From positions 1-53,733 of the forward strand of contig VGWX01000001.1 in assembly GCA_016873615.1 (NCBI GenBank): 53,733 nucleotides of DNA, in the 5' to 3' direction. This stretch comes from Nitrospira sp. GTDB taxonomy: Bacteria > Nitrospirota > Thermodesulfovibrionia > Thermodesulfovibrionales > SM23-35. Shown here piece by piece: positions 15,565 to 18,782 of the stretch (within the stretch, counting starts at the first letter, position 1; every line of letters starts with the position of its first letter). The notes under the pieces were generated by a model. That model did not search any database, was not told the origin of the DNA, and worked only from the letters and a program-made list of their open reading frames with translations. The translations under genes were made by a program, and so were the position numbers.

Positions 15565-16662
15565 CTAAGGGGTCTGACTTTTTTGTGTATGACATGTGAA
15601 ACATCCTCCCGAACCGCTTCCGCCAGCTATCATAGTGCTATAATCCCATCTAAGAATATCAGGATATTGAGAACCATGAACTCTATGGCAGGAAAGGCAC
15701 ATAACAACAGCAGTTGCCCGTGACGGATTTGATGGATCAGTCCATGCAACAGGAGCTTCAACACTATAATTCGTTACCGGATCATATGATGAGTATTCAC
15801 CGGTTTGAGGCAAAAGGATATCGGATGGATGCCTTAACCATGGACTTGAGCTGCCCATAAATTGTTGCCTGTGGTATTGTCCATGACATCCACCGCAAAA
15901 TGAATTTATGCTATGCGTTTGTTCAAGAGTTACTGAACTGTCAACAGGGCCATTGTATCCCTTGTATTTATTATGATTATTTTGATCAGGATTCTGTTCC
16001 CAGTTTGGGTCCTCAATGCCGGTTACATAATCAACAGTGTCCAGGTGTCCCTTTAAAAACCTGTACCATGGCTTTGAATCGTCATGATGTGCAACCCGCA
16101 CATGGCATCCCTGGCATCCGTTAGTCATGCCAGTAAAAGTATCTTTAGCCGCTGCAAGGGTAGAATGGCAACTTGTTGCATTTCCACAGGTGCCGCTTTG
16201 TCTGCCAGGCGCTGTTGACAGTTTACTATCTGCCCCGGCTATGCCGTATACATTGTGTCCATATACTTCGTTATCACCGCCTAAAGAAACTTTATAAAAA
16301 TTTCCGCCGGCAAGAGGTTTCGCAGGATAACCACCTGTATTAAAAACAATAGGTATTCTGCTGCCGCCTACGTTTATTATTGTCTCACCAGTCGTTGAAG
16401 TATGACACCCGACACAACTGGAAACCAGAAGGGTTTTCAGAGGGTCAGCCTGCAGACTTCCGCCTGAAAGCTTACCGGAACTATTCCATCCAGCGCCTGT
16501 TCCATCCCTTGCAACAGAGACACCGTTCTGGCTATTATGCATGGTATGACAGTTGACACAAGGACCGGAAACCATAGCATCAGAAGTATGATATGAGAAA
16601 CATACAAAAAATACTGCCACCACGGCAACCAACAGATATGTATGACATTTTTTGTATTTCAT
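15565..16662 (-). CDS. Multihaem c-type cytochrome
   Basis: From ATG 16662 it has 365 residues with a signal peptide (KKCHTYLLVAVVAVFFVCF). Six CXXCH haem sites are visible: CVNCH, CVGCH, CQGCH, CGGCH, CLSCH and CFTCH. A seventh possible site is CGNATSCH (CX5CH), which is non-canonical. Extra histidines suitable as distal ligands occur near the sites (TMHNSQ, RVAHHDD, RVHGSQ). The 'GPCVNCHTMH' start is common in periplasmic cytochromes of anaerobic respirers. A role in extracellular or periplasmic electron transfer is inferred. The promoter region holds a 38-bp perfect palindrome. An upstream in-frame TTG (16692) lies inside the palindrome and is not preferred. Confidence 0.88.
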   Translation of the reverse strand: MKYKKCHTYLLVAVVAVFFVCFSYHTSDAMVSGPCVNCHTMHNSQNGVSVARDGTGAGWNSSGKLSGGSLQADPLKTLLVSSCVGCHTSTTGETIINVGGSRIPIVFNTGGYPAKPLAGGNFYKVSLGGDNEVYGHNVYGIAGADSKLSTAPGRQSGTCGNATSCHSTLAAAKDTFTGMTNGCQGCHVRVAHHDDSKPWYRFLKGHLDTVDYVTGIEDPNWEQNPDQNNHNKYKGYNGPVDSSVTLEQTHSINSFCGGCHGQYHRQQFMGSSSPWLRHPSDILLPQTGEYSSYDPVTNYSVEAPVAWTDPSNPSRATAVVMCLSCHRVHGSQYPDILRWDYSTMIAGGSGSGGCFTCHTQKSQTP

Positions 16663-16673
16663 AGTATTGGACA

Positions 16674-16711
16674 GATTTAATTTAATTAGCAATTGCTAAT
16701 TAAATTAAATC
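16674..16711. promoter_or_regulatory. 38-bp perfect palindrome in the cytochrome promoter
   Basis: The 19-bp half-site GATTTAATTTAATTAGCAA is followed by its exact reverse complement with no spacer. It overlaps the candidate -10 element and 5' leader of the cytochrome gene. It is A/T-rich and could be a regulator operator or a cruciform/hairpin. Confidence 0.85.
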
Positions 16712-16730
16712 ATTTTTTCTGTAATGTCAA
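16702..16730 (-). promoter_or_regulatory. Candidate promoter of the cytochrome gene
   Basis: On the minus strand TTGACA (16725-16730) and, after 17 bp, TAATTT (16702-16707) lie partly inside the 38-bp palindrome. The -10 match is weak. Confidence 0.4.
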
Positions 16731-16846: not shown

Positions 16847-17854
16847 ATGTTCCCTTATAAAGATCAGTTCAGCGGCTGTTTGATTGGTCAGTGTCTTGGT
16901 GACGCAACCGGTTTTGCTGTGGAAGGCTTTTCACCTGAAGCGTGCAAAAGATATGTGGAAGATTTTTTAATAACAGAAAGGACAGTAGATTTTGGCAGGT
17001 TTCCCTTTCCTTTCGGTCAGTATTCGGATGACTCTCAGCTTGCACGTGAACTTATTCAGAGCTATATTGCACGTAAAAAATTTGATCCGGCTGATTATGC
17101 TGAACGGATAAAGCTTATCTTTGTTGAGAAAAGGATTGTGGGATTTGGTTACTCAACAAAAGAAGCAGTAAAAAGATTATGCCAGGGTATCTCATGGGAA
17201 GAATCAGGGGCCCCTCCTCCGGCAGCAGGCAATGGAAGCGCCATGAGAGCAGGGCCCATAGGCCTTTTCTTTTTTGATAACCCGCACATGCTTATTCAGG
17301 CAGCGCATGATCAGGGCAGAATTACCCATAAAGACCCGCGAAGCTCTGCAGGGGCAGCAGCGGTCAGCGGTGCAGTTGCGCTGGCGCTTCAGGGGAAAAA
17401 AATAAATGCTGAGTCTTTTATCTCAACTCTTGCAGACTGGACAGCTGCGGTTGAACCCGTGTTTGCATCTGAGTTGAAAAACCTGATTCAATGGTTATCC
17501 CTTCCGCCTGAAAAAGCTGCAACCTTTATTTCCAAAGCCGGCTACGATCCTGATTATATTGATGACGATGAATGGAAAGGCATGTCCGGATTTGTCATCA
17601 GCAGCGTGCTGTGGAGTCTCTATGCATTTCTCAGATCCCCTGATGATTACTGGCAAACCGTATGCACTGCAATTGAGGCAGGCGGGGATACAGATACAAC
17701 AGCAGCAATGGCAGGTGCAATAAGCGGCGCATATCTGGGAATAAGCGCGATACCCTCTCGCTTCACAGGTCTTCTTACCGACCGAGGGAAATGGAGACTT
17801 GACGAACTCGTCACATTAGCGCATCAGTGCTACGAAATAAAAATGCGATCGTAA
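16847..17854 (+). CDS. ADP-ribosylglycohydrolase family protein
   Basis: DraG-type hydrolases remove ADP-ribose from proteins or nucleic acids with a binuclear Mg site. The 335 residues show GCLIGQCLGDATG (10-22), the metal motif YSDDSQ (59-64, equivalent to TDDT), GNGSAMRAGPIG (about 129-140) and the second metal motif AGGDTDTTAAMAGAI (about 280-294). All expected acidic metal ligands appear present, so it is probably active. It is transcribed divergently from the cytochrome. No nitrogenase or ADP-ribosyltransferase gene is in the window, so the substrate is unknown. Confidence 0.9.
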   Translation: MFPYKDQFSGCLIGQCLGDATGFAVEGFSPEACKRYVEDFLITERTVDFGRFPFPFGQYSDDSQLARELIQSYIARKKFDPADYAERIKLIFVEKRIVGFGYSTKEAVKRLCQGISWEESGAPPPAAGNGSAMRAGPIGLFFFDNPHMLIQAAHDQGRITHKDPRSSAGAAAVSGAVALALQGKKINAESFISTLADWTAAVEPVFASELKNLIQWLSLPPEKAATFISKAGYDPDYIDDDEWKGMSGFVISSVLWSLYAFLRSPDDYWQTVCTAIEAGGDTDTTAAMAGAISGAYLGISAIPSRFTGLLTDRGKWRLDELVTLAHQCYEIKMRS

Positions 17855-18182: not shown

Positions 18183-18782
18183 ATGAAAGAGTTAACCGAT
18201 AAACAGAAATACATCCTTGATTTCCTTATAGAGCATACACAAAACCATGGATACCCTCCCACTGTCAGGGAAATAGGGAATCACTTCAGGTTTCTCTGGG
18301 CTGCTGCGAGAGCACATCTAAAGGCTATCGAAAGGAAGGGATTTATAAAATTAAACCCGGCCAAATCCAGAGGCATAGAGATTTCAGGTTTAAAGCTATC
18401 GGCTGGATTCATGCTTCCTGTTGCCGGGAAAATAAGGGCAGGCAGACCAATACTCGCAAGGGAGGATATCGATGCGCACATCCTGGTTGATAAATCCTTA
18501 TTCCCTCATGAAGATACATTTTCTCTCAGAGTAACCGGAGACAGCATGATAGAGGCAGGGATATTAAATGGAGATTATGTGCTGGTTAAACCTCAGAGGA
18601 CAATCGAAAACGGAGAAATCGGGGTTGTCCTTATCGATGATGAAGCAACGGTCAAGCGAGTCTACAAAGAGAAAAAGAAGATAATTCTCAGACCAGAAAA
18701 TAAGGATATGCAACCGACAAAACACAACCCCGATGAGGTAACAGTCATCGGGAAAGTCGTGGGAGTTATACGGAAGATCTAA
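18183..18782 (+). CDS. lexA: SOS repressor LexA
   Basis: LexA represses DNA-damage genes and cleaves itself when RecA is activated. The 199 residues show the N-terminal winged HTH (about 1-65), the cleavage site Ala86-Gly87 (KIRAGRPILA), catalytic Ser121 (VTGDSMIEAGI) and Lys158 (EATVKRVYKE), so autocleavage should work. The recognition helix is unusual: FRFLWAAARAHLKAIERKG replaces the common form with SP-NAAEEHLKAL, so the operator is probably different from the standard ones. The start has a weak GGGGAAG site 11 nt upstream. It lies before a small SOS-neighbourhood protein and, further on, dinB. Confidence 0.95.
   Translation: MKELTDKQKYILDFLIEHTQNHGYPPTVREIGNHFRFLWAAARAHLKAIERKGFIKLNPAKSRGIEISGLKLSAGFMLPVAGKIRAGRPILAREDIDAHILVDKSLFPHEDTFSLRVTGDSMIEAGILNGDYVLVKPQRTIENGEIGVVLIDDEATVKRVYKEKKKIILRPENKDMQPTKHNPDEVTVIGKVVGVIRKI

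Follow-up and report, generated by a model that had tools for sequence, protein, structure and literature searches.

The window, by which we mean the whole stretch of 53,733 nucleotides analysed, contains a gene for a secreted multihaem cytochrome with six CXXCH motifs (Paired_CXXCH_1; 15565..16662, minus strand), whose best start is the ATG at 16662-16660, and a divergent gene on the plus strand at 16847..17854. The preliminary description had called the latter an ADP-ribosylglycohydrolase gene, which its match to the ADP_ribosyl_GH domain (PF03747, E 7e-69) confirms. One gene past it lies a lexA-like gene (18183-18782), a gene order also seen in G017:C177. Between the divergent genes, 11 nt from the cytochrome start, is the sequence GATTTAATTTAATTAGCAATTGCTAATTAAATTAAATC at 16674..16711 (no strand assigned); direct sequence and an inverted-repeat scan agree with the preliminary description that it is a gapless 38-bp palindrome having 19-bp arms and no mismatch. 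A cytochrome promoter can be predicted on the minus strand from a -35 box TTGACA (16725..16730) and, after a 17-bp spacer, a weak -10 hexamer TAATTT (16702..16707), both found by consensus match only. This predicted -10 box falls within the palindrome, in its left part in the minus-strand reading, as had been proposed. For the ADP-ribosylglycohydrolase gene, no promoter that would overlap the palindrome is convincing, so that control of this gene by the site is at most a possibility.

At the local base composition, 19 consecutive matches about one centre have p = 4e-10, and the chance of such a palindrome across an assumed 0.3 Mb of similar DNA is about 1e-4. The ranking of palindromes used 2.13 Mb of host sequence with a GC of 0.427, a sample that amounts to about 74% of the 2.9-Mb genome and over-represents the larger contigs and the initial 20-40 kb of each; the same sample served for the matrix scan and the arm-symmetry counts, while half-site, inner-34-bp and core-string searches covered the whole genome. 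The palindrome ties for the longest gapless one in the sample, and three first-order Markov simulations gave longest arms of at most 12 versus the 19 found here, in keeping with the earlier judgement that chance is a very unlikely source. The only other palindrome of equal length in the sample (G000:C52:6079-6116, locus L166) is ATAAGAACATACGGTAACCGGTTACCGTATGTTCTTAT, also perfect over 38 bp, unrelated in sequence to that at 16674-16711 and placed some 2 nt ahead of the probable ATG of a different gene; its half has no further copy in the sequence searched. Two 30-bp palindromes, L184 2935-2964 and L105 1654-1683 (TGTAGGGGC...GCCCCTACA), belong to one repeat type that they share in the host genome.

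Comparison of the promoters of cytochrome relatives first revealed a 14-bp conserved core, TTAGCAATTGCTAA (16686..16699, no strand assigned), which has the consensus TTAGC-WWWW-GCTAA, recurs in the same genome and in relatives, and is proposed as the operator proper. The counterparts of these divergent cytochrome and ADP-ribosylglycohydrolase genes flank an exact core in G014:C82 and one with a single mismatch in G017:C177. These are two genera other than the host's, and their intergenic DNA around the core is otherwise unalignable. The core is absent from the cytochrome orthologues that belong to other families within the order. The core also occurs in the C61 palindrome TAATAAAATTAGCATATGCTAATTTTATTA, among the five longest in the sample. 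The conservation anticipated before orthologous cytochromes is therefore found for the core, kept in two other genera, and not for the outer arms. The idea of an operator at the cytochrome promoter stands in the same restricted form, insofar as the core is kept in orthologues and recurs before paralogous cytochromes while the outer arms are not kept. The 17-mer half site that had been named for a genome search was found, across the whole genome, only in the palindrome itself and is hence uninformative as a probe; likewise, the inner 34 bp have no second copy in the genome at up to 3 mismatches. Because the half site is unique and the arms are not kept, a literal half-site or palindrome test would reject a real site: a striking long palindrome can hide a shorter, more meaningful element.

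The longer, 16-column motif ATTAGC-N4-GCTAAT occurs in 4 of the 61 relatives searched, all of the host family, versus a spread across six genomes for its reversed control. Among 20 family genomes, TTAGCWWWWGCTAA was found in 15 places and its reversed control in 4. Genomes that carry the candidate small RNA (sRNA) described below account for all 15 and the 12 others for none, whereas the controls split 2 and 2; one place, G014:C133, is within a coding gene and is probably there by chance. A weight matrix built from 16 sites and made symmetric was then scanned over the 2.13-Mb host sample. At 16 bits or more it marked 16 places, five of which belonged to the training set, versus 0 in reversed sequence, and at 14 bits or more 23 places versus 1. 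By a simple calling of ORFs all 16 fall between genes, one of them in contact with the start of an ORF, and the columns at the core centre hold 0.66-0.91 bit for A/T. The targets include the window cytochrome, cytochromes on C23 and C2 (one with 26 CXXCH motifs), a pilin operon with PilW and methylation-motif proteins that is also marked in G007, and PilZ, GGDEF and HD-GYP signalling proteins. Genes for an RHS protein, a papain-family protease and a DUF4382 lipoprotein are marked as well. G002 and G018 share a site at the gene of a secreted protein of 126 aa whose neighbour is PilZ-like. There is thus a strong sequence-based case that the palindrome contains an operator belonging to a regulon, which would be common to a subset of one family of uncultured, Thermodesulfovibrionales-like Nitrospirota and is apparently undescribed.

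One group of core sites lies behind a gene for a putative repressor. Here a promoter with the core, exact or with one or two mismatches, between its -35 and -10 boxes is followed by AACUCCCCCC and a strong terminator. In six genomes the region is joined to the repressor gene (0-2 mismatches in the core), and two more have the same sRNA with a degenerate core promoter at contig starts. A covariance model finds this candidate sRNA, AACUCCCCCC plus terminator, in 8 family genomes (L081 2278-2329; L080, L083, L084, L086, L087, L224 and L227), and these loci match no Rfam family. In both G012 and G018 the gene that comes after the sRNA region is convergent, which makes a small RNA the most likely product of the promoter. 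In RsaE and other known sRNAs, C-rich motifs of this sort pair with ribosome-binding sites.

The gene concerned, G000:C5:31713, encodes a Cro/CI-type regulator with an HTH_3 N-terminus (E 5e-10) and was found, among 176 genomes from the order, in 8 that all belong to the host family; it adjoins a core site in G002 and G007. The best PDB profile match of its HTH domain is P22 C2, a likeness upheld by structure comparison over residues 1-66, and the domain resembles DdrO as well. The C-terminus gives a weak S24 match (E 0.019) in which the Ser position usual in autocleaving S24 domains (LexA/lambda CI type) is not evident by eye, and the structural model of this half, with pLDDT mostly 54-82, is too unreliable for interpretation. 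Seven orthologues all have the same four cysteines, making redox or metal sensing by the repressor thinkable. The repressor's own promoter has degenerate sites only (2 mismatches, three genomes). The co-occurrence of core, sRNA and repressor gene can, like the recurrence and conservation of the core itself, be read directly from the genomes. Across the 20 family genomes, Fisher tests gave p = 7e-4 for core and sRNA, p = 8e-4 for regulator and sRNA and p = 0.018 for core and regulator, all three values being optimistic owing to shared ancestry. G010 carries the repressor but has no core and no sRNA; for G017, which has both of these, the available sequence is interrupted by a contig break and does not include the repressor gene.

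Relative to predicted promoters, the core takes three positions. It is centred at about -16 at the sRNAs, C62, C121 and targets in G007, G014 and G017; at about 0 to +5 at the window cytochrome, C61, C23 and the G002 cytochrome; and at about -49 at the G014 cytochrome and the secreted protein of G002 and G018. These promoter positions are predictions: several sites fit more than one promoter equally well, and the best of many was picked. At the window cytochrome the core centre falls at about +3, so that the core would span the predicted transcription start. The positions near -16 and at 0 to +5 would suit a repressor, while activation is possible at the -49 sites.

We consider it probable that TTAGC-N4(A/T)-GCTAA is the operator of a regulon, most likely that of the Cro/CI-type repressor. 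The repressor, with its HTH_3 domain and degenerate S24-like C-terminus, would bind the core as a dimer; at about +3 of the predicted start the bound core would block the cytochrome promoter, and at other targets it would be bound between the -35 and -10 boxes or just upstream of the -35 box. The identity of the binding protein, the repression and the signal are what we infer from this arrangement. A wider circuit can be put forward tentatively, in which a cysteine-conserved, phage-repressor-like protein, a palindromic operator and a C-rich sRNA, whose promoter has the operator in its spacer, co-ordinate c-di-GMP signalling with the multihaem cytochromes and the type IV pili; such a circuit would be undescribed.

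A repressor operator leaves the long perfect arms to be accounted for. They may well be functionless, a reading to which we give somewhat less than an even chance: template switching during replication, a process documented in E. coli (PMC7202029), would have made perfect an imperfect inverted repeat that surrounded a real operator. This is compatible with the repressor operator and with the finding that no other locus has the 38-bp arms whereas the core is common to other sites. Three of 26 sites, however, have at least 8 symmetric flanking pairs, their arm sequences differing, and three long-arm sites suggest a recurrent process or selection. The common signal is the core, the arms being an extra at some sites, from either template-switch correction or a structural role.

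That the core is a true operator read by some other regulator (for example an unlinked MarR, CRP/FNR or response-regulator protein), with the repressor merely neighbouring the sRNA target, we regard as rather unlikely, even though it is the sRNA promoter that holds the site beside the repressor gene, the autoregulatory sites are weak and G010 has the repressor without sites. The narrow distribution common to repressor, sRNA and core argues for the repressor, as does the agreement of its HTH class with an A/T centre. FNR sites share the 5-4-5 layout, but CRP/FNR was rejected as the reader of the site: the genome has one clear member only, and this protein has an FNR-type helix, expected to read TTGAT.

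The preliminary description had also raised cruciform formation, and we think it improbable that the element acts as a structure limiting translation or transcription, whether as a DNA cruciform or as a hairpin formed by the cytochrome leader RNA, 11 nt ahead of the start codon. The palindrome does fold stably both as RNA and as single-stranded DNA, the transcribed strand reaching -18.5 kcal/mol (z -8), and long symmetric arms exceed those of shuffled flanks (p < 5e-5; 7.5e-4 without the window site). Average flank symmetry is not raised across the 26 sites (p 0.06; 0.23 without the window site). Against a structural role, the letters of the core are kept and not just its pairing, most sites are without long arms, orthologous cytochrome promoters have the core without them, and many targets have it between the -35 and -10 boxes, outside the transcribed part. 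A LexA box is rejected, as the rest of the window, the lexA promoter (18183) included, has no core at up to 1 mismatch; a REP/MITE repeat is rejected for want of a second copy at up to 3 mismatches in the genome, and an intrinsic terminator because the plus-strand flag has only 3 G-C pairs and no plus-strand gene ends there.

The closest known systems to the proposed repressor and operator are those of P22 C2 and 434, whose operators, as here, have two short half sites flanking four A/T base pairs and whose repressors, like the candidate, have the Cro/CI-type HTH fold. They are phage systems, whereas the regulon proposed here is chromosomal, and the letters of the P22 C2 operator half site differ from TTAGC. 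In the operators of both P22 and 434 the centre has to be A/T and is recognised by its shape (PMC3317979, PMC3711457). The HrcA operator CIRCE (TTAGCACTC-N9-GAGTGCTAA) also starts with TTAGC and ends with GCTAA, but differs in spacer and length (PMC545781), and the targets here are not heat-shock genes; HrcA/CIRCE was rejected insofar as it needs 9-bp arms and a 9-bp spacer, whereas the core has 5-bp half sites and a 4-bp spacer. In the literature, as far as the sources could be consulted, the letters TTAGC/GCTAA were met with CIRCE, KorA/KorB and DtxR, none with the layout of the core. Cytochrome and pilus genes under c-di-GMP/cGAMP control in Geobacter are the same kinds of genes under one control, and one target here, on G017:C200, has a c-di-GMP-I riboswitch besides its core site; the control described there is a riboswitch, whereas the shared element here is a DNA palindrome.

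Many Nitrospirota have large cytochrome sets, and a literature search found no regulator of these sets. What emerges here is a DNA motif with a list of its targets, together with candidates for the regulator and the sRNA, all of which can be tested in vitro without cultivation.

Two further loci carry an RNA element or a possible one next to a site. On G000:C62 (L176 ~206-350), which has a sub-threshold Rfam match only, a site in a predicted promoter is followed by about 100 nt and then a G+C-rich terminator. The nearest gene after that is more distant, and a second small RNA may be encoded here. On G017:C200 (L070 1553-1636), a c-di-GMP-I riboswitch scoring 55 bits, in the leader of the marked gene, lies directly 3' of a core site.
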